This document shows positions 29,539-41,447 of a stretch of DNA of 64,000 nucleotides, piece after piece. The stretch is from contig OX485803.1 in NCBI GenBank assembly GCA_950295325.1, positions 64,495,554 to 64,559,553 of the forward strand. Direction: 5' to 3'. This stretch comes from Polytrichum commune. Taxonomy: Eukaryota > Streptophyta > Polytrichopsida > Polytrichales > Polytrichaceae. The position numbers were made by a program, and so were the translations under genes. Numbering within the stretch: the stretch's first letter is position 1; the number at the start of each line of letters is the position of its first letter. The notes under the pieces were generated by a model. It was not told where the DNA came from and did no database searches. It saw only the letters and a list, made by a program, of their open reading frames with translations.

Positions 29539-29550
29539 TCATCGAAGTTA
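29539..29550 (+). other. Left copy of 12-bp target-site duplication
   Basis: TCATCGAAGTTA directly abuts the left end of the transposon and is repeated exactly at 41436-41447 beside the right end. The preceding C also matches, so the duplication could be 13 bp. Confidence 0.85.
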
Positions 29551-29623
29551 GGGGAGTGCTATCTTATGAGCGGTGAGCAATGAGCGGTGAGCGATGAGCG
29601 GTAACTTATGAGCAGTGAGGAAG
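29551..29623 (+). repeat. Left terminal inverted repeat with TGAGCRR heptamers
   Basis: After GGGGAGTGCTATCTTA the sequence runs as near-tandem 7-mers TGAGCGG, TGAGCAA, TGAGCGG, TGAGCGA, TGAGCGG, then ATGAGCAG and TGAGGAAG. It pairs with the right end at 41355-41435. Subterminal repeats of this kind are commonly transposase binding sites; that role is inferred here. Confidence 0.85.
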
Positions 29624-29747
29624 ATGAAAATTTTGGTAATAGGGCCACCAATATCCTATAACCGTGGAATTGTGGCCTTAAAAATGATGATTTTAGGGTT
29701 TAGTAATAAGAGGCTTGAGAAGGATAAACAACATGAAGTCCAAAAAT

Positions 29748-32700
29748 TTATTCATCAGTAGTAGCACTAGACATGAAACTATCTTTTGCCTCGTCATCTA
29801 TATATATTCGAGCACCTTTGCATTGCGAATTGATTTTGGAACTATAGCAAGATTCTTCATTTGGATCCGAATCTTCGAGATTCAACATTGCAATTGCAAC
29901 ATTCTCGGCATATGATGGGAGACGCGGGCTACGGCTTGGACTTCGTAGGAATTGTCTATGTGCCCAAAACGGGAGACATGTCCTCTTTCCAATCGTATTC
30001 CTGAAATCAAATCGATGAAACATGTAAATAATGTGAAGAAATAAAAATGAACCAATGAATTGAATGAAACGAATGAATTGAATAAAAATTTATTGTATCA
30101 AAACTTACTCACACTCAAATTCAAGCATCTCCTCATCCGAGAGGTCATCATCTTCTTTTGTGAGATCTTGTATATTCTCCTTAGATGACCCCTCTTTCAA
30201 AACCTTTTCCAAAAGCGGTTTCAATATGTGCTCAAACATGTCATTATCACCCTCAAATGCAAGAAGATGTCTGCCACATGCGCGTGTTGCTAGGATAGAA
30301 GCTCCAGTGGAACACGTCAAATCAACAACGCGTCCATTCGATGGTGTAAACAATTCAATAAGATCTTGAAAAAAACGCGGCGATTTTTGATATGGCCCCC
30401 TCCAAGGTCTTCCCGATTTTTGAAGAAGCATGTTTTTTTCATCCACAAAATTGAAAAGCAAGTTTTTGCTTTTCAATCCAGTGCCAAAAAAAGTGGAGTT
30501 TGGTTGTCTCGTGGATTTTGTGGTAGTAAAATCCCTTACCAAGACATGAGCCATAAATGCCGGAGTCTACAAAAAAATATAAATTGTGTTAAAACTATAT
30601 ACAATACAAATAACACCAAAATAATTAAATAGAAACAATTGTGATGTGTTATACTTACGGTGTACGTTGGAGACTCCGGATCCTTGAACACCATGTACGA
30701 ATTGAGGCAAATAAAAGTCCTAACAACTTTCATGTTGCCGTTGTGTAAGGTTGAATTCAAAACCTTCTTGGTTTGCATATCGATAGCAGAAAATACTATG
30801 AGGACGCCATCATCAGACAAGATGGACTTGCACAAGGACATTGTTGCAACCATCCAGTTCTTGTCATATTTATTCCAAAGAGGAATTTCAGCAGGTTTAT
30901 TGGAGAGGTTGAAGTCAAGACCGTCGGGAAATTGGAGAAAAACCAAGTCAACGGCAAAGGGAGTCGGACTTCCCATGACATGAAATTCGCGATTGTCATT
31001 GAACTGAAATACCACAACATATCACAATATAAGACACAAAATAAAACCCAAATGAAAGTAAGAACATTAGAAGAAATTCCAAAACAATAACACTTACGTT
31101 TTCAATAAATTCCCGCCATTGGATCCACTCAGGAGGGCCTAAATCCACCCCTTTAGACTTGTTCTTGACAGCAGTAGATCGAGCAAACGAGAGCGTGAGA
31201 AAGTTCTTCAATATGAATAACTCTTTTCTCAAAATATCCGTTGGCGCACGATGAATAGCGTCATAGGTGCTGGAGTAATGAAATTCCAATACATCGCACC
31301 CATACTTTGAACTTTCGCCTCCAAGTGGATTCTTATCCAAATCATTGGAAAGAACAAGCAATTCTTCATGTTGTGAAATTTCCGATTGACCTTATATTTT
31401 GGTTTCAGGAACATGTTTCCTCTTACGACGTTTTGTCTCTTTTGGTTCTGGCTCTCTAAGTTTAAGCTGCACAATTTGTGCTTGCAAAATTGCAGTATCA
31501 CGAGGATCCACATTTTTAGCATCATTTATCTGACGGATTGTCTTCTCACTTGACGGACATGCATCCTTAGGACAATCAAGATACCAACCACAATCCTCAT
31601 AGTGTGGGAGCGACCAATCCAAACAAATCTCAGTAGTGAACATGCATGAATCTCCTGCACCAGTGTCACGCCAATTTGGGAAAAAACGAGGTTCCCCTAT
31701 AACGCATTTATGTGGAATCAAAACATATCAAAAATACCTACACACAAAAATATTGTAAGTCAAATATTCCATGACAATTTGACAAATGGAATAAAAAAAA
31801 TCAAAAAAATAATAAGATTAGGTTGTACCTGTATAATACACGTTTCATAGCAAGATCAATATTAGGTTGCTCATCCCAACCGTTGTGTTTTTTAACTTTT
31901 CCGCTTTGGAATTCACGATAGAATATTGAATTGAAAGCCGCAAACTTCCAGGTTTGGATATACTCGGAGAGAGTAGGCACATCTGCAGGCAACTGAAGAG
32001 GAGATGAAAGAATACTTTGAAGCTCTTCGATAGCTTTTTTTTCCAACTGTGCCCAATATGTAGACTTTGATAACCAATCATCAAGTGCAGAATCAGAGAG
32101 GGGCGATTTCGGGAAGTGCAATGCATCTTTGTCAAATCTATTGTCATTCCAAAGTTTGAGCCATCCAACTTTGACTTCTGAATCCACATTACTGACAGCA
32201 ACACGATGAAGTTTCTCTTGTAGCATTTCAGGCACCGAAAATGAACCCCAATGGTGCTTAACTTCTTCAAGGAAAGCAGAGGTAAGGTTGATGTCGACAA
32301 TCGCTAGTTGTTTCGTAAAACTAGAAGATAACATTGCACGTTTTTTATTGACAGCTACGGACATTGCTTTTGAAACTCCGTCTGATGTCCGTTCAAGAGG
32401 ATGAGTTTCATTGTACTGGTTGAGAGCAATATCGCTAGCCTCAGCAAGTTCTTGCTGAAAAATCAAACAAAAGTTAATATTTATAAGTACATATAGATGT
32501 AATGTAAAATGAAGATGAATAAACATAAGGCACATATTAGCAATGGTAGAAGAACTTACACTGTACATGTAATCCAAAAAAAGTGGTCGTGTCAAAGAAT
32601 ACCAAGTTTCAACGGACTTCTCCTCACATCGTTTATAATTCTTTGGATCCAGTTGCTTTCTGAAGGAAGTCAAAGGCATGGTGCCTATACTTTGCATCCG

Positions 32701-35700
32701 ATATAAAGTATGCACCAAATTGGTGGATACGTGAGAATTTTCGGTTGACCTAAAAAAAAATTTAAATTGATTAGATTCATGATGATATAATTTGGATAAC
32801 AAAATATAAACTAGAAATAAGTATAAAAAAATAGGTAAGAACATTACTTGTTGATGTCATGCATAGCAGTCAACAAACTTGGAATATCGTCAAGCTCGGG
32901 CGCCAAAATGATAGAATCCACGAAGACATGACGTTCATAATCTTCGGTATATACGCGGTCAATATAATTTTTCCAAGCAAAAAATCTGTGATTTCCATCC
33001 CATATAAAAAACATCTTGTTCTTGTATGACGTCAATGACAAATCTGTATCCAATTGAGATTCAAACAGGGCATTGGCTTGAGCCCAATTTGGGCTCCAAG
33101 ATGCGCGAACCTCATCATCCACGAATTGAAAGTTTCCCTTAGAATCGGTGGCCGATATATAAAACACACGGTCACCATCACGATAACCATTAAAAAAATC
33201 AGACTCCAATTTAGTAATGTCACCCTTCAAAGCAGGACGCACAATCGGCATAGGAACCATGCGACATAAGGGTACACGCAAGCGAGCATTAGGTCCAGCA
33301 CGGATTGAAGAAATTGTGGAAGTGGAATTGACCTTTCGTTTGTTCGTAAGCTCCCACACTTTCTCTTGATAAGTTTCATTGTCACCATCATTATCTTCAT
33401 CCGAGTCAAAATCATCGAGGGATTCATTTATTTTTTTCTTTTTCTTATTATGAAGATTTGACGATATATCCTGATGATGATGAACCTGTTGAGATGGACG
33501 ATCTTGAGTTGAATGCATTGTGCAATCATCATCAGTCGAAATAAGAGTCGTTCTCTCCAAATCCATTGATTCGTCCTAAAACAAATGAAATAAGTTTAAT
33601 AAATAATCCAAAACCAGTAGCAACACATTAGCAATAACATTACAAAACCAACAGCAATAGCAACAACAATAACAACATAATACCACGAACACAGGGAAAA
33701 ATGACAAAAATTATTCTACACATTGCCATTTACATCTCTAAATATTGTACGATTACGGTGGCCGCTCACCCCAAAACTACAAGGGCAGACCCTGTGCGTT
33801 AACGCACAGGGTCTGTGTGTCCAACTACAGGTCTACAAAAGTTGGGCGCGAGGTTTGCGTCGAATGACCCAAACTGTCCACCCAGTTTCGATCGAGCGAC
33901 CCAAACCGCCTACAGCCAGTTTGGGTCAGATGACCCAAACTTTCTACGCGTGGTTTGGGTCGGCCGACCCAAACCATGCGGACAGTTTGGGTCGGTCGAT
34001 CCAAACCATGCTCACAGTTTGGGTCGACCGACCCAAACCATGCTCACAGTTTGGGTCGGTCGACCCAAACCATGCTCACAGTTTGGGTCGGTCGACCCAA
34101 ACCATGCTCACAGTTTGGGTCGACCGACCCAAACTAGGCGGACAGTTTGGGTCGACCGACCCAAATTAGGCGGACAGTTTGGGTCGACCGACCCAAATTA
34201 GGCGGACAGTTTGGGTCGACCGACCCAAACTGTCCGCAATTTACGCCTGAATATGCGCAAATACCCTGTCATCACGAAAGTACAAACAAACCTTGTACTG
34301 CACCTGTAGATGAGAGAGCTTGCAGCGTCGAGCTAAGGTCCGACAGATGAGAGAAAAAAGACTGAATGCTTTGGGGGTGTGGCAATTTATACTACTCGTC
34401 CTTACAGCCATATTTAGCGTGGCTCTTCGTGGCCCTGCATAGCCGCTAGAAAGTTGTCAGCGTAGACCCTGTGCGTTAACGCACAGGGTCTACGCTGGCA
34501 ACTTTGAGGCCACTGTGCGTTAGCGCATAAGGCCTGTGCGTTAACGCACAGGGCCGAGGCATGAATTTTATAAAAAACTTTTTTTTTTGAATTTGATAAA
34601 AAACTTTGTCTGGAATTGGTAGATTTGCCAAAACTTGTAAAATCTGGAAAAAATGCTAATGGGGTCCAAAAAAAAAAACAAAAATATGCTATATTATCTA
34701 AATCTCCGTAGCTAAAAATTCTTCTCATATTTTTTTTTGGTTTGAAATCATTTTCTTTTCTCATTCTTCTATCTATTTCCTTGTTTTGGGCCACCTCGTA
34801 GATTTTGGGTTTCGGGGCAAGAAAAAAATTATGCTATTTTGTGTCATTTTCTAGCTCCTATAACGTATTGCATGAATACTTGAGTAGACATATTTCTCAT
34901 TTCTTGCATTCTAACCCCGTTTTGAATAGTTTTTTTGGTCCTACGCTCTGAATATCGATTTAAATTCATACAATAGATATTTGTTTTACTTTTAGGCTCT
35001 CCTAGTCGTTTTACCTCCCAATTTTTGGCGTTCCTAAGTTGCTCTTACAAACCCTGTGCGTTAACGCACAGGGTTTTAGCTCCGAACTTTGGCCTTCCTA
35101 AGTTGCGCTTACAAATCATGTGCGTTAACGCACAGGGTTTCTCCTCCCAACTTTTTGCCACCTAAGTTGCTCTTACAAACCCTGTGCATTAACGCACAGG
35201 ATTTCCCTTCCTAACTTTTGGCCTTCCTAAGTTGCTATTACAAACCCTGTGCGTTAACGCACAGGGTTTTAGCTCCCAACTTTTGGCCTCCCTAAGTTGC
35301 TCTTATAAACCCTCTACGTTAACGTATAGGGTTTTACCTCCCAACTTCTCGACTCCTAAGTTGCTCTTATAAACCCTCTGCGTTAACGTATAGGGTTTTA
35401 CCTCCCAACTTCTGGCCTCCTAAGTTGCTCTTATAAACCCTCTGCGTTAATGTATAGGGTTTTACCTCCCAACTTCTCGACTCCTAAGTTGCTCTTATAA
35501 ACCCTCTGCGTTAACGTATAGGGTTTTACCTCCCAACTTCTCGACTGCTAAGTTGCTCTTATAAACCCTCTGCGTTCTCCTCCTGACTTCTAGCCTTCCT
35601 AAATTTTTGTTATATACCATGTGCATTAACGTATAGGGTTTCTCCTCTCCAATTTCTAACCTCTATAAATTGCTACTACAGGACATGTGAGTGAACGTAC

Positions 35701-36047
35701 AAGGTTCTCCGTCCTAACTTACAACTTATGCACTATCAAATTATGTGAACGTTGAACTGACTTACTTTTTTGTTTGTCATCTTCTTTGAACCCGTCTTCA
35801 ATTCGGACTCTGATACACGATCGTCTACATCTTCTTTGCTCTTTGCACCTTCATCATCCTCCATCGCATCAAAATCCAGTGTCTTCACAGTTTCCTCTAC
35901 CATACTCAACAAGTTTCTTTTCCCTTTCTTATTTGCATTCTTCTTTCCCACACTCAGTCTGAATCTCTTTTTCTCGGAAGTGAAATACAAAGCTTTCCTA
36001 CGTCTTCTCTTCGGCCTCACGGGTGTTCTCTCTACATCGTCCACCAT
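29748..36047 (-). CDS. Accessory transposon gene: ParB-like domain plus beta-class DNA methyltransferase-like domain, 8 exons
   Basis: Exons on the minus strand: 36047-35766, 33575-32848, 32749-32560, 32454-31842 (or to 31829), 31696-31098, 31003-30659, 30566-30109 and 30000-29748. All other junctions are GT-AG and phase-consistent. The product is about 1,150 residues. Residues 1-94 are basic (RPKRRRRK) and acidic, with a Lys run (KKKKK) near residue 140. A ParB/sulfiredoxin-like segment has VPLCRMVPMPIVRP and WDGNHRFFAWKNY (DGNHR near 287-291). A Cys-rich stretch (ICLDW...DCGWYLDCPKDAC) follows. The C-terminus has beta-class methyltransferase order: VDLVFLQFPDG (motif IV position), LSDDGVLIVFSA, then RVVDLTCSTGASILA (motif I) and GRHLLAFEGD. 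Oddities are an in-frame TAA at 31394-31392 and a phase problem at the exon 4-5 junction unless a weaker GTGTAT donor is used. The protein may be nuclear and DNA-binding; enzymatic activity is doubtful. Confidence 0.7.
33786..33815. repeat. 30-bp perfect palindrome (GTTAAC family)
   Basis: The 30-bp perfect palindrome is centred on GTTAAC, with core TGTGCGTTAACGCACA. It lies in the first intron of the accessory gene, just before the 32-bp-period array. It is the same motif as in the array at 35035-35730. Confidence 0.9.
33853..34230. repeat. 12-unit, 32-bp-period array of short inverted repeats
   Basis: Each unit has 10-bp arms GTTTGGGTCG and CGACCCAAAC around a 2-bp spacer (usually GT or AC), then a 10-bp linker such as CATGCTCACA or TAGGCGGACA. 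Unit starts are 33853, 33885, 33919, 33953, 33985, 34017, 34049, 34081, 34113, 34145, 34177 and 34209. The period is 32 bp except for two steps of 34. The first three units are more diverged. The array lies in the first intron of the accessory gene. Apparent reading frames through it are artefacts of the periodicity. Confidence 0.95.
34458..34497. repeat. 40-bp perfect palindrome (GTTAAC family)
   Basis: A 40-bp uninterrupted palindrome is centred on GTTAAC, with outer arms AGCGTAGACC and GGTCTACGCT. Two related partial palindromes follow at about 34512-34558. In transcribed RNA it would form a long hairpin within the intron. Confidence 0.9.
35035..35730. repeat. Array of GTTAAC-centred palindromes, period about 60-65 bp
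   Basis: About eleven units each combine CTAAGTTGCTCTTA(C/T)AAACCCT, a GTGCGTTAACGCAC-type palindrome and AGGGTTT(T)...CTCCCAACTT. The later units carry a decayed palindrome (CTGCGTTAACGTATAG), so symmetry fades toward 35730. The array lies in the first intron of the accessory gene, next to its first exon. Confidence 0.9.
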
Positions 36048-36569
36048 CGTTGGTGTCTATGATATGTTTTCTATCAGGTACTATCATTTATTCTTCCAAT
36101 GTATCTATCTCACAAAATCCGGCGTATATTATGATCACATGTTGTAATTGGCGTTCAATGAGCGAGATATTTCGACGCGTTTGTCATTATGTGTTTATTT
36201 TTGTTATATCCGCCAAAATTTTCTGACACCTACTTTGTTCTATTCATAATGATCAATAATTTATTTTTCCAACCAATTTTAATTCTTTCTACATCTACGT
36301 CAGTCCACACATATATATTTTAAATTTCTACCAATATTTTTAGTATTTGACGCCATTTTGTGTATATCTTGCTCGTAAATATTCTCTGACTATTATTGTG
36401 TTATGTCCATTTCTGTATTATTAGATGCTATGTATCACACGCTTTCATCTCCATCCATTATTGTATCACACGTTTTCATTTCCATTCATTTCCTCACACA
36501 ACTCTATACAAAAGTAACATTCACCCCATATTCTTGTGATATATTGTTCATATGTTCTTTTGATTTTCT
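36048..36569. promoter_or_regulatory. Divergent promoter region between transposase and accessory gene
   Basis: The two start codons of the transposon genes face away from each other across 522 bp of AT-rich DNA. This interval must contain both promoters or one bidirectional promoter. No specific promoter elements were assigned. Confidence 0.5.
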
Positions 36570-39500
36570 ATGGCTACCATTAGAGCTCATGGATCTTTTG
36601 TTCCCTTCATCTTGCCACTCCAAGATGATGGTCATGTGAGTATTTCAGAGGATTTATTTAGTTTGAGATTCAACCTCCAGATAGGAACCATGTATTTAGA
36701 GCATGAGATGTACTCTGCAAATGGAGAGGTGTATGAAACGATTTTGGTTCCAAAAAATAGAACTGATGTTGGTTTTATGTGGATCCTAGGACCTGGTTCA
36801 TTTAGGGTGATAGGACTTTCTGAGTCTCAGATGCAAGTTTCAACTGTCATTTTGACAAACGAATCCGGTACATCCACAGTTCAAATTCCCTCTATCGCAC
36901 CTGTTAAGGTGGAACCCCTTGATGATAGTGTGTTTGTGCTATCAGATTCAGAAGATGACATTTGTGCATCTATTGATCTTTCAAACACATCGCCATTTCC
37001 ATTTAGAAGTGTTCATTCTACTCCTTCCCAACTTCCTATACATGTAGCCAAATTCCCTTGCGGTCTTATGTACAAGAAGGTGGTTCCCCAAATCTCACCT
37101 TCTCAACGTCCTCCACTACACCCTTCACCTTCATCTACAGGGTTGACTATGATTGATGCCTTGAAGCTGACAAAGTCAAGAAAAAGATCAAAGTCCGATC
37201 TTGCATCCATTGATTTTGACAGTATAGATGTTCGTGAAGTCAAGTACTTACCATCTTCTTTTAATGGTGATGTTTTGTTTCTCTTGCCTCCTGTGGCACT
37301 CAAAGCTCCAAATACGTATGGTCGCTCAATGGACGGCATGGACAAGATGTGCGACGGTCACCCTTGGTGCACCACCAAAACCACGAATATCCAAAATGAC
37401 TTTGGACTGTCTTTCCGGCGCTCTACTTGTGCTGGTCATCTCGAATGTCATAATGACTACTGTGATTACATGAATCGCAATGGGGGCCTCCGGAACAACA
37501 CTGAATGGGCCGGTTCAACTCCTATCCCATTTGCTGTGGGTGTTGTTCCCCCTACTAAGTCCACTGTCGAGTGTAAGGTATGTCGTTCCACACCTGTGTG
37601 CATTGCTTTGTGTAATGCTCGAATCATATACATCCAGTCCACATCCGTTGGAATGTCCAGGGCTTGCATTCATCTTGGTGTACATGATCACCCTGTGGCC
37701 AATGGCACATGCCGTGAATCATTGGACATGGCATACCAATGCGTTGCAAATGAGGTATTGAAAACACCCACAGCAAAAAATTCAGCCATAGTTATGGCGG
37801 CGAGCAAACAATTCTTGGCCGATTACCTTCTCAAATCTCCCGCAAATGTCGAAGGCCATCACTTGGTTGGTTCATCCCTAGAGGTCGTCATGGACAAATT
37901 CAGCACTCTTGCGTCCCCAAATTGTCGTGACTTTGTATCTGGATCAAAGCGTTTTTTGCGTAGTGGAATGGGAACTATGGATAGTATTATGGCGCTCAAA
38001 GACCACTCTGCTTTCAAATTCGTCCATGGTAGTCGGTTCCCAGGGCAGTCAAAGGACAAAGTGTTTATTTTCAAGATGTCTGTAGACCTTCCAGGTAGTG
38101 GTGTGGAGCTTGTGAGGAGGATGCAAGTCGGTGGGGATATGGAGAATTCATGGATTATGTTTGACCATGTCAAACGTTTGAAGGACTGGACGACCATGGC
38201 TTGCCATGTGTACGACAGTCGATACTGTAAAGTGTTGACTATTGCGTGTTGTGACATGCAATCTGAAGATGGTGCAGCACAAATTCTCTTTTGGGAAAAT
38301 TTGAATGCTGTCATGGCAGAAAATGGTGTACCAAACGTAAACTTCAAAGGATTTATGGCTGATAGTGCTCAAGCTAATTGGAATGCGGTGAGGGCGATTT
38401 ACGGGGATGGTGATCCAAGTCTACCCATGGTTGCACGTGAGCGTACATGTCTTTTCCATTGGTCCGCAAGCTTGGATAAGGTGACCCAAAAGTATATCAA
38501 ACCATCATTGCAATTTCAACACAAACAAATATGCAAGGATTACAAAGACGCGAAAACAATGGACGACGCTGAGACCAAGTACCATGTGATTCGTTCTTGG
38601 TGGTTGTCATCTGGAGCTGCCTCCGAAGAAGGCATCCTTGGCCTTTCAGAGTGGTTGGGATTTTGGCACTTTCGTTACAGACAATGGGGTGGCCATATGC
38701 TACTTGTAAGTACATATCAAACTTCATTATTCAATGTAATATATCTTATGTTTTTCTTATCTTTGTTTTTCTGTGTTGTTCATAGGATATGACAATAGAA
38801 AAACGTGCGGGAATGCCAACATGCAACCTTGCAGAGACTGTACACAACAAACAACAAACAGTTTGGGTCGTTCGACCCAAACGTGGCAGCCATTTTGGGT
38901 CGAACAACCCAAACTGCGCAAACAGTTTCGGTCGTTCGACCCAAACCTTGTATGCAGTTTGAGTCGAACGACCCAAACATGGCAGCCATTTTGGGTCGAA
39001 CGACCCAAATTGCGCAAACAGTTTCGGTCGTTCGACCCAAACCTTGTAGGCAGTTTGGGTCGTTCGATCCAAACGTGGCAGCCATTTTGGGTCAAACGAC
39101 CCAAACCTAGATATATAATCTATCTTATGTTTGTCTTATCCTTGTATTTGTGTGTTGTTCATAGGATATGACAATAGAAGAGCGTGCAGAAATGCCAACA
39201 TGCAACCTTGCAGAGACTGTACACAACAAATGGCTCCAACAGTCCGGCAACAAGATGACTTGTTTATATGAAGCTACAGTGGACGACATGATCCGTGCCT
39301 TCATGCAAATTGCAAATTACCGGACATGGTTGAAAGGGGGGTCTGATGGTAAAGGTCCTGATTCGGCCTCCTTGAAACTCAAAGCAGCTGCCAGGTGTGG
39401 AGATCCAAAAATGTTGGCTGATGCCATGAAGTCTTACCCAGGGGCAGAAGACGTCAACACTAGAGATTGTGCATTGGAAGGGTCAGAACTCTTTGGTTCT

Positions 39501-40532
39501 ACCAAACGCAAACTCAACCTACCACCGGGTGCTGATTGTGACTCTCATCGACCCGACAAAGTGAACTATTCCATTCCTCGTCCCAACACCCGAGCAACTC
39601 GTCAACGCATAGAGGAATCGTTGAGTTCTGCAATTCATGATGTGGCTCATACTACATCCGTGTTAGAGACTGATTGTCTTGCTTCCAATTGGCACATTGC
39701 AAGATTACCACCCAACTCAGCCAAACGATGTTGGGCACTGCAGGCCATTACAGGGACTATGTGCAATGCTAAAATCGGGACTGGGAAACATGGCACACCT
39801 GCCCCAACATACAAAGGGCTCAGGAAGGAATTTCGATCTCCCAACAATGTGGAGTATGAATTTTGGTTTTGCCCTGACGACATCAAGCGTTGTGTGAGTG
39901 GCAGTAAGAAGAAATATGTGTTGGACTGGCCTATAGTACCCAACACGTGGCCGGTGAAGATAGGTACCAATCTATCGAGAAAGGAGGTTTTGGCACTTGA
40001 AGATGCTGGATTTCAACTACAGCAGAGGGAGGCATTGTCCCCTCGTCGTAGGCTTTCAACAATTGCAACTCTCCCCATCCCTCGCTCGTATTTTTCTATA
40101 CCACCAAACCCGGATGCCCACCCTACATTCAGGTTTGGGAAGACAGTGCGTCGTAATCCAACAGCACCGCTAGCGGATCACAAAAACAAATGGGAGAGTG
40201 CCGGACTCATGGAGGGTTACTATGTGGTTGGGATCACTGCCATTCCATATCCGGGCTTTGGAGTGATAATCAACATTGTCTCCAAGCAGGATATCACCTA
40301 CCATGTGACAATTGGCGACATCCCGCATTGCACATGCCCGGATTTCACGAAAATGTCCTCTCATGCATTGGGAAAGAAAGGAAAATGGGTGTATTGTAAA
40401 CATCTTTATTATGTGTTTAGATTTTTGTGCAAGGTGGATTACGAGAGTGACAAGTTCATTCATGCACCTACATATACCTATAATGAGGTCATGCGACTAC
40501 TTGAACTTGCTGGTATTGTAGAATGTGAGTAG
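36570..40532 (+). CDS. Mutator-like (MULE) transposase, 2 exons, 1167 aa
   Basis: Exons 36570-38705 and 39165-40532 join in phase (GGHMLL then DMTIEER) to one 1167-residue frame. Residues about 255-375 form a Cys/His-rich region like the GCM/WRKY-GCM1 zinc fold of many MULE transposases (RRSTCAGHLECHNDYC, CKVCRSTPVC, ACIHLGVHDHP). The catalytic-core signatures include MFDHVKR (D532), FKGFMADSAQANWNAVRA (D598) and RTCLFHW (C627, H630). A SWIM zinc finger lies near the C-terminus (C1101, C1103, C1123, H1125). A basic KSRKRSK at 202-208 may be a nuclear signal. The enzyme would cut and join element ends. The intron (38706-39164) contains a decoy acceptor at 38785 and a palindrome array. The frame is uninterrupted, so the gene may still be active. 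Confidence 0.88.
38741..39230 (+). repeat. 111-bp direct duplication of the intron acceptor and exon-2 start
   Basis: Copies at 38741-38851 and 39120-39230 both contain TCTTATGTTT, TGTGTTGTTCATAG, GATATGACAATAGAA and ATGCCAACATGCAACCTTGC. They differ at several positions. The palindrome array lies between them. Splicing to the first copy (acceptor AG at 38784-38785) would read into the array and reach a TGA. The second copy continues into the long downstream frame. Confidence 0.9.
38861..39106. repeat. 8-unit, 32-bp-period inverted-repeat array in the transposase intron
   Basis: Units start at 38861, 38893, 38925, 38957, 38989, 39021, 39053 and 39085, exactly 32 bp apart. Arms are variants of GTTTGGGTCG and CGACCCAAAC with a TT or AA spacer, and linkers are GTGGCAGCCA, TGCGCAAACA or CTTGTATGCA-like. 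It is the same family as the array at 33853-34230 but with different spacers and linkers. Confidence 0.95.
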
Positions 40533-41220
40533 TATTGCAAGTGTTCTATTAAACAACATATATTTCAATGTCAATAAATGACATGTTTTGGTTTGGATTA
40601 TTATAATAAAAATTAGCAATGGACTGAAAGTATTTCAAATGATTCAGTAACTTCATTTCTATTTAGACTACACCCAACCGTGAGCGGTTTCATTTATTCA
40701 TACGGATAAATAATAACAAGTTTCTAAAAATAAAAAATAATTAAGAAGATTCTACGCACATCCGCGTAGTAATGTCTTCTTGGTATCCGCCTATAGATTA
40801 TTCCTTCTTTATCACTAGCTCAATTTGGGATAGCACCAGTCAATGTAACCAACCGGATTCGAACCCGGGCTGATCCAGACCTAATACCAGTCTCTTACAC
40901 AACTCGCATCCACAGGCGGATGTCTCAAAACCTAGTAACTACCTACATATTGACAATTTCTATTATCTAATTTCCTTGTTTTTGTAGATTGTGGGCCTTA
41001 ATTCAACCCGTGAGCGGTTTGAGTGGCTCACAATTATGGCACCTACATATACGTATAATGAGGTTATGCACCTACTTGAATTTGCTGCTGTTGTAGAATG
41101 TGAGTAGTTGTACAAGTGTTGGTTGTAACTACATGTATAAGGATGTCAATAAATTACATGTATTTGTTTGGATTATTATAATAAAAATCAGCAATGTATT
41201 GAAAGTGCTTTAAATGATCC
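40464..41220 (+). repeat. 182-bp direct duplication of the transposase 3' end
   Basis: Copies at 40464-40645 and 41039-41220 span the last codons of the transposase and its 3' flank (GAATGTGAGTAG; TTTGGATTATTATAATAAAAA). They are separated by 393 bp holding a tRNA-like SINE candidate. The second copy encodes only the last residues and is non-functional as a gene. It may supply a second polyadenylation region. Confidence 0.85.
40676..40935 (-). mobile_element. Possible tRNA-related SINE insertion inside the transposon
   Basis: On the minus strand a B-box-like GGGTTCGAATCC (plus 40856-40867) lies downstream of a GCGAGTTGTGTAAGAGACTGG segment that loosely fits an A box. An A/T-rich tail follows. 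Both sides of the insert carry GTGAGCGGTTT (about 40681 and 41007), which could be a target duplication or a copy of the element's own TGAGCGG motif. Assignment is tentative. Confidence 0.35.
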
Positions 41221-41354
41221 ATGGCAATAGGGCCCTTTCACTTATGTTTCATTTAAAATACTTGCAATTTACAATTGAAAATATGCAATTAATTTGTCAA
41301 AATTGTGGTTGTGTACCCTAAACCCGTGTGTCTTTACTAAATTTGGATTCATTG

Positions 41355-41435
41355 CTCATATGTTACTGCTCATTGCTCATGTGTTACTGCTCACCGCTCA
41401 CCGCTTACTGCTCATCGCTCATAAGATAGCTTCCC
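41355..41435 (-). repeat. Right terminal inverted repeat with TGAGCRR heptamers
   Basis: Read on the minus strand it begins GGGAAGCTATCTTATGAGCG and continues with TGAGCAG, AAGCGG, TGAGCGG and TGAGCAG, then ATGAGCAA, TGAGCAG and ATGAGCAA in looser spacing. It matches the left end at 29551-29623 apart from 2 bp near the tip and variation in heptamer number. Confidence 0.85.
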
Positions 41436-41447
41436 TCATCGAAGTTA
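41436..41447 (+). other. Right copy of 12-bp target-site duplication
   Basis: TCATCGAAGTTA is identical to 29539-29550 and directly follows the right end of the transposon. Confidence 0.85.

Follow-up and report, generated by a model that had tools for sequence, protein, structure and literature searches.

Proteins that join a ParB domain to a DNA methyltransferase have been described from transposons of algae. The Ectocarpus element Sola1-1_Ec32 carries a gene for a 1104-residue ParB plus N4/N6 methyltransferase protein on the strand opposite its transposase, similar proteins are stated to occur in green and red algal transposons, and it has been suggested that these proteins may bind the element that encodes them and alter it epigenetically (PMC12477816, in the portion accessible to us). 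Fusions of the ParB-CTPase fold to an N6_N4 methyltransferase are common in phages and prophages, according to the accessible part of PMC12704722. Here we describe, in a 64,000-nucleotide stretch of the 408-Mb genome of Polytrichum commune (C1:64495554-64559553; hereafter the window), a Mutator-like element (MULE-like) DNA transposon whose eight-exon accessory gene encodes a ParB/sulfiredoxin-like domain, a middle domain and a methyltransferase-derived domain, has been subject to purifying selection in its source copies, and is accompanied by arrays of palindromes in the introns of the element. A poorly known class of accessory proteins, reported so far from algae in the literature that we found, is thus extended to a land plant. 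For the green and red algal cases, PMC12477816 cites Iyer 2011 and Petroll 2025. The genome has four matches to the LEAFY family (PF01698), all exceeding the cut-off, against none in 14 prokaryote controls; they point to a land plant or a close streptophyte, LEAFY not being known outside that lineage.

As in Sola1-1_Ec32, both domains are part of one protein of about 1100 residues encoded opposite the transposase of a DNA transposon. The differences, compared by description only, lie in the land-plant host, the MULE-like element with 10-bp target-site duplications (TSDs), the degenerate methyltransferase motif IV and the palindromic arrays. It is these features that are new, the kind of protein being already known from algal transposons; that such transposon proteins are undescribed, as a preliminary description of the window might suggest in knowing of no plant transposon with one, is not supported, given the Ectocarpus case. 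Among the matches listed, the open-access literature yielded no land-plant example of a transposon gene for a ParB-methyltransferase protein. The phage and bacterial fusions also combine these two types of domain in a single chain, whereas the protein described here has in addition a large middle domain and is encoded in eight exons. The nearest functional model, by likeness of anatomy and not by membership, is VANC of the Arabidopsis VANDAL MULEs, a precedent among plant MULEs for motif arrays that go with an anti-silencing protein (PMC5735166, PMC10398659, both in part); the target motifs of VANC are described as tandem repeats that change rapidly and lie in introns and other non-coding parts (PMC5735166). 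Both systems comprise an accessory gene of a MULE-type element and non-coding tandem motif arrays that vary between copies, but the VANC motifs are short words in the same orientation and those described here are long palindromes. To our knowledge, VANC has neither a ParB nor a methyltransferase domain. Retrotransposons bearing a DNA methyltransferase (DNMT) occur in charophytes and dinoflagellates (PMC5890265) and DNA transposons bearing TET/JBP proteins in fungi (PMC12730594). The former are alike in carrying a DNA methyltransferase, although of the C5-cytosine type and in a retrotransposon, the accessible part of the source mentioning no ParB domain; the latter are alike in their DNA-modifying accessory enzyme, which is however a dioxygenase and not a ParB-methyltransferase, as far as the accessible part of that report goes.

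The element is flanked by the 10-bp TSD ATCGAAGTTA (29541-29550 and 41438-41447, read by eye) and was compared with 14 other copies. Insertion-specific TSDs of 9-10 bp were found in nine of these 15 copies (window, E03, E04, E06, E07, E08, E09, E10 and E24), which are the copies with resolved ends. As each of these insertions has its own TSD, the element has moved as one unit together with both of its genes. A genome search with exon 6 of the accessory gene returned at least 138 matches at an identity of at least 70%, a recurrence that is not due to chance; among the best 150 matches listed were also one further place in two pieces (57 and 73%) and ten places at 37-38%. The eight minus-strand exons within the terminal inverted repeat (TIR) element lie where the preliminary description had placed them (Table 1). 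Their joins are phase-consistent over 3522 spliced nucleotides, and seven of seven introns are bounded by GT..AG in the window copy, which carries two nonsense codons that had been missed earlier. Every splice site is kept in seven of the 15 copies, two of which have an uninterrupted 1173-codon frame; one further copy is open minus one splice site, and breaks or truncations affect the remaining 11. Phase-consistent joins, seven copies with all splice sites and two fully open frames rule out a chance open reading frame or a wrong gene model.

Evidence that the gene has been maintained by selection comes from the comparison of substitutions common to at least two of the 15 copies with those private to one. 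The former comprise 66 nonsynonymous and 46 synonymous changes, a ratio to expectation of 0.48 (p=1.6e-4), and the latter 294 and 97, a ratio of 1.01, in counts that ignore the tree and recombination and score stop codons as nonsynonymous. The corresponding ratios for the transposase, from 13 copies, are 0.31 (shared) and 0.88 (private); a simpler count gave a Fisher p of 0.0013. Constraint on shared but not on private changes implies that copies decay neutrally after insertion while their sources are under purifying selection, and supports the view that selection has kept the accessory gene in the transposon. The decay itself is biased: 280 of the 448 private substitutions in the gene region are C>T/G>A, versus 39 A>G/T>C, and the C>T changes per site amount to 0.233 in CG, 0.235 in CHG and 0.172 in CHH contexts, whereas A>G/T>C changes amount to 0.016. 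An excess in all three contexts is the signature of cytosine methylation, and the host therefore appears to silence these elements.

The ParB/sulfiredoxin-like region spans residues ~190-340 and includes, in exon 2, the WDGNHRFFAWKNY segment from which it had originally been recognised. An alignment of the window with 16 of at least 150 genome matches (17 sequences in all) yielded an AlphaFold2 model with a predicted local distance difference test score (pLDDT) of 78.6 and a predicted template-modelling score of 0.76. Foremost among its Foldseek matches are ParB, Noc, KorB, PadC, SbnI or sulfiredoxin structures, which make up 37 of the first 38 from the PDB, the other being Agrobacterium Atu1540. 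Many of the top matches in a viral structure library are likewise named ParB or partitioning, with other names mixed in (best E=0.018, probability 1.00). The modelled domain thus looks like a ParB/sulfiredoxin fold through the agreement of its matches and not through E-values, which supports the assignment made in the preliminary description, where such a structural check was proposed. The ParB-like PHROG phrog_1033 is matched by six of the 17 relatives (best E=0.05). Invariant in the alignment are V-R, a spaced W..W..N..F and the N-H-R of DGNHR, the G of GNHR being nearly so; one copy of a related family (family B, L050), outside the alignment, has GNHP instead. GNHR conforms to the GxxR phosphate-binding motif, the arginine of which the ParB-fold proteins examined in the accessible part of PMC12704722 require to bind nucleoside triphosphates, and the domain may accordingly bind nucleotide. 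Searching the genome with the family-B version of the domain returned at least 150 matches, most at 36-48% identity and copies of the window's own family (family A) among them; judged by these matches, the domain is a large family in this genome.

The C-terminal third of the protein is a METHYLTRANSFERASE-like domain, spliced from late exon 5 to exon 7. In the window family this segment matches PF01555 with E=4e-4 and 20.8 bits, below the cut-off of 26.7, and phrog_67 with E=1.3e-7. The family-B relative L049 reaches 32.5 bits over positions 1-216 of the 221 of the PF01555 profile, above the cut-off, and strengthens the assignment: on profile evidence, this part of the protein appears to descend from N6/N4 methyltransferases of the beta class, in line with the methyltransferase-like domain proposed at the outset. 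It is on these sequence profiles that the methyltransferase fold is predicted, AlphaFold2 having given a pLDDT of 33 on the family-B exon (L049) alone. The motifs follow one another in the order recognised at the outset, a IV-like motif in exon 6 and then motif I in exon 7. Motif I is kept as DLTCSTGAS in family A, DLSVGTGAS in family B and DLTAGTG in a third family, C. Canonical motif IV reads DPPY, SPPY or NPPY. The pattern [DNS]PP[YFW] is found in none of the three families, which have QFPDG (A), DIPYG (B) and EYPDG (C, L052) in its place; QFPDG is kept in 23 of 26 window-family exon-6 sequences, E04, E11 and L037 differing by one codon each. With the non-canonical QFPD, the window family is therefore without the usual catalytic residues and possibly a pseudo-methyltransferase, and its version of the domain may be inactive.

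The architecture is not confined to the window family. Family B (L049, C1:9661250) is 23% identical to the window protein over 524 aligned positions (E=3e-39), and its upstream exons encode VPIPLCRMIGMEVVRP and MFHIWDGNHPFKAW, followed by the middle domain and the methyltransferase. The stretches of family C that were read comprise the middle domain and the methyltransferase, with 36% identity to the window family over the aligned segment. Six of the ten places matching exon 6 at 37-38% have a same-strand ParB match 2.3-4.1 kb upstream and a seventh has one at 7.7 kb (by eye); the remaining three, L052 included, have none among the best 150 matches listed. A ParB match likewise stands 5-6.2 kb upstream of at least seven motif-I matches (by eye). 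As far as can be judged from sequence, the ParB-middle-methyltransferase arrangement is thus recurrent in families B and C, and the families related to that of the window are likewise multi-copy and dispersed. Searches further afield returned little: a tblastn search of phages with 870 residues of the 1173-residue protein yielded 45 records (E up to 10, best 0.01), and one of plasmids with the methyltransferase segment of 315 residues yielded four (best E=0.03), none convincing; no relative was confirmed in viral contigs or in bacterial and archaeal genome contigs, and sequence searches of the PDB gave no relevant match. The middle domain has no match in a Pfam search.

The introns of the element are rich in palindromes. 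Perfect palindromes with arms of at least 8 bp number 21 in the 11.9-kb element versus eight in the other 52.1 kb of the window, and 18 of the 21 are two motifs or near variants of them. Motif 1, TGTGCG-N4-CGCACA, has all six of its window sites in intron 1 and none in 100 shuffles; genome-wide it has 852 sites versus four for a reversed control. Among the first 50 of its distinct genome sites, all on C1, 43 are no more than 10 kb away from a family-A copy, and 13 of the 15 copies read contain 4-11 exact sites, with none outside the element as bounded (the right bound of E11, E22 and E23 being the end of the stretch read). Family B has a version of its own, TGTGCGCTRGCGCACA, with 42 distinct genome sites, 40 of which lie 3.3-4.3 kb upstream of a ParB exon; such palindromes are present at 11 of 11 family-B copies, the 20-kb neighbourhoods of which make up 0.05% of the genome. 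Since the arrays of A and B have the same TGTGCG half-site, this half-site is common to two protein families at 23% identity. Among the sites listed, the TGTGCG palindrome appears largely restricted to these elements. Motif 2, TTTGGGTCG-N2-CGACCCAAA, occurs in intron 1 and in the transposase intron, and has 9,731 genome sites versus none for its reversed control.

Taken together, these findings suggest that the accessory gene is functional in its MULE-like transposon and that its product, a ParB/sulfiredoxin-fold domain joined to a middle domain and to a methyltransferase-derived domain that has kept motif I and lost canonical motif IV, would recognise its own element through the palindromic arrays in the introns and act there in trans, so that the element stays expressible or mobile. 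By analogy with VANC in the Arabidopsis VANDAL MULEs, it could do so by opposing the methylation of the element by the host; where motif IV is nearly canonical, as in some relatives, the protein might instead mark the DNA with N6-methyladenine or N4-methylcytosine. We give this scheme as a whole, sequence-specific self-recognition with anti-silencing or marking by the accessory protein, an even chance of being correct. If true, it would provide plant transposons with a second route, unrelated to VANC, to answer DNA methylation, and it offers in TGTGCGTTAACGCACA a putative recognition site open to a simple gel shift. A bolder version, unlikely as a whole, is that a phage-type ParB-methyltransferase has been domesticated as an addressing system: nucleotide-gated loading at parS-like element palindromes would be followed by spreading and by shielding or marking, the methyltransferase being active in family B and a DNA- or S-adenosylmethionine (SAM)-sensing scaffold in A and C, with proteins and palindromes diversifying together.

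Several observations weigh against self-recognition. The Foldseek E-values against the PDB all exceed 0.1 (best E=0.14, probability 0.91), Pfam PF02195 does not match the ParB-like domain, and a profile search of PDB sequences with it returned no ParB, the top row being katanin p60 (E=0.025). Among the 50 motif-1 sites, one cluster of seven is near no known family-A copy, and two single family-B-type sites are likewise near no known copy; the arrays are missing from E22 and E23, both of which match the window over the 3' part of the gene only, and the family-C stretches read (L052, L053) contain no palindrome with arms of at least 8 bp. Many of the motif 2 sites form arrays outside family A. 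They are present in a region at C1:616089-626109 (L071) and in similar regions of about 10 kb; in one such region they occur beside a different multi-copy protein, encoded by a 511-amino-acid frame found at 91 places with 90-100% identity, which has no recognised domain and is not recognisably a ParB-methyltransferase; motif 2 is therefore not specific to the accessory gene, nor are arrays exclusive to it. The arrays could accordingly be sites of the transposase or of other proteins, or by-products of minisatellite growth, and the binding, expression and activity of the accessory protein are predictions from sequence.

An alternative with a minor but real share of the probability is that the protein assists transposition, binding the internal palindromes and assembling or positioning the ends, or limiting copy number, as a second MULE gene product might. 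Its being encoded together with the transposase, the selection on both genes and the presence of palindromes in the transposase intron would all fit such a helper, but the arrays are internal and not subterminal. That the protein is an active enzyme marking the element by adenine N6 or cytosine N4 methylation, as proposed for the algal relatives (PMC12477816, in part), seems doubtful: the profile matches in A and B, the SAM motif I kept in all three families and the closeness of DIPY in family B to DPPY speak in its favour, against which stand QFPD in the window family and EYPD in family C, the two being 36% identical over the aligned segment. The marking of element DNA by methylation, entertained in the preliminary description, is weakened because motif IV in the window family is QFPD and not DPPY. 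That the gene is a passenger of no use to the element, to which the 13 of 15 copies that are not fully open might point, is highly improbable given the constraint on shared but not on private substitutions and the recurrence of the architecture in B and C. The chance that an ordinary host gene was caught once in a transposon, the refutation envisaged at the outset, is negligible; nothing was found in its favour, and we reject it on account of the dispersed exon-6 matches and the independent TSDs, relatives being multi-copy and dispersed as well. Self-recognition is the reading that we prefer.

The element is called MULE-like because of the length of its TSDs, a SWIM-like zinc finger in its transposase and a D..D..CxxH arrangement that we take to be the MULE pattern. 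A TIR with TSDs of 8-11 bp is what is expected of a MULE, and the 9-10-bp TSDs agree with this. The SWIM match, at 12.6 bits, is under its cut-off of 19.6, and, as a further point against the interpretation offered here, the MULE domain (PF10551) is absent among the Pfam matches of the transposase. The transposase frame is open in four of 13 copies compared, the window included.

Table 1. Features of the transposon and its two genes (positions in the window)
Feature	Position	Strand	Remarks
Complete TIR transposon, MULE-like, two divergent genes	29551..41437		11,887 bp; TIR arms, boundary common to copies, 10-bp TSD
Left terminal inverted repeat	29558..29619		87% complementary to 41369-41430
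Right terminal inverted repeat	41369..41430		87% complementary to 29558-29619
ParB-like/methyltransferase-like accessory gene	29748..36047	-	1173 codons in 8 exons; window copy with two nonsense codons
Exon 1	35766..36047	-	Basic N-terminus, 94 codons
Exon 2	32848..33575	-	Acidic/basic linker, then ParB/sulfiredoxin-like domain with VPLCRM...VRP and DGNHR
Exon 3	32560..32749	-	After ParB-like domain
Exon 4	31829..32454	-	Middle domain, no known family
Exon 5	31098..31737	-	Middle domain and linker; both nonsense codons of window copy
Exon 6	30659..31003	-	Methyltransferase half, motif-IV position (VDLVFLQFPDG)
Exon 7	30109..30566	-	Methyltransferase half, motif I (GRVVDLTCSTGAS)
Exon 8	29748..30000	-	C-terminal tail and stop
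Intron-1 palindromes TGTGCGTTAACGCACA	33786..35269		6 exact sites; longest arms 18 bp
Intron-1 array of TTTGGGTCGNNCGACCCAAA palindromes	33918..34237		Spacing mostly ~32 bp
Same TTTGGGTCG palindrome in transposase intron	38861..39105
Transposase gene	36570..40532	+	2 exons (36570-38705, 39165-40532); 1167 aa, open in window copy

Some minor observations concern individual copies and neighbouring sequences. In the window, the palindromic array is flanked by two copies of the start of transposase exon 2 (38787-38855 and 39165-39233), leaving two possible splice acceptors. Eight copies (E09, L037, L039, L040, L041, L043, L044 and L045) have a frameshift of one base at an identical position of exon 7, which suggests either that a subfamily has spread from a gene that was already broken or that the slip is recurrent. 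Exon-7 matches at 66-78% identity had been considered as diverged subfamilies, but the ten that were read belong to the window family itself, as copies with frameshifts or indels; a supposed retro-processed copy at C2:44453701 was likewise dropped, its lengths fitting a deletion around exon 3 better (judged from match lengths). At C7:40171557-40173809 a diverged relative, with 67-79% DNA identity to parts of exon 1, intron 1 and exon 2, adjoins a normal copy.

Just upstream of the family-B gene and on the same strand lies a broken protein-kinase-like stretch (L051:2000-3098, C1:9657599-9658697) with the motif GRGSYGVVWK, which we take to be kinase-like from this motif and a Pfam Pkinase match of 11.4 bits, below the cut-off. 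Upstream of the family-C exon is a long stretch with repeating reading frames and without palindromes (L053:1-1900). The 511-amino-acid frame beside the motif 2 arrays of L071 contains a motif-I-like GDCIFNVFGGS, noted by eye only, and matches no family. Finally, bacterial-type N6_N4 methyltransferase and/or ParB genes over Pfam cut-offs at C10:4592-15353, C12:29034-30278 and C23:8829-9982 are probably contamination of the assembly.

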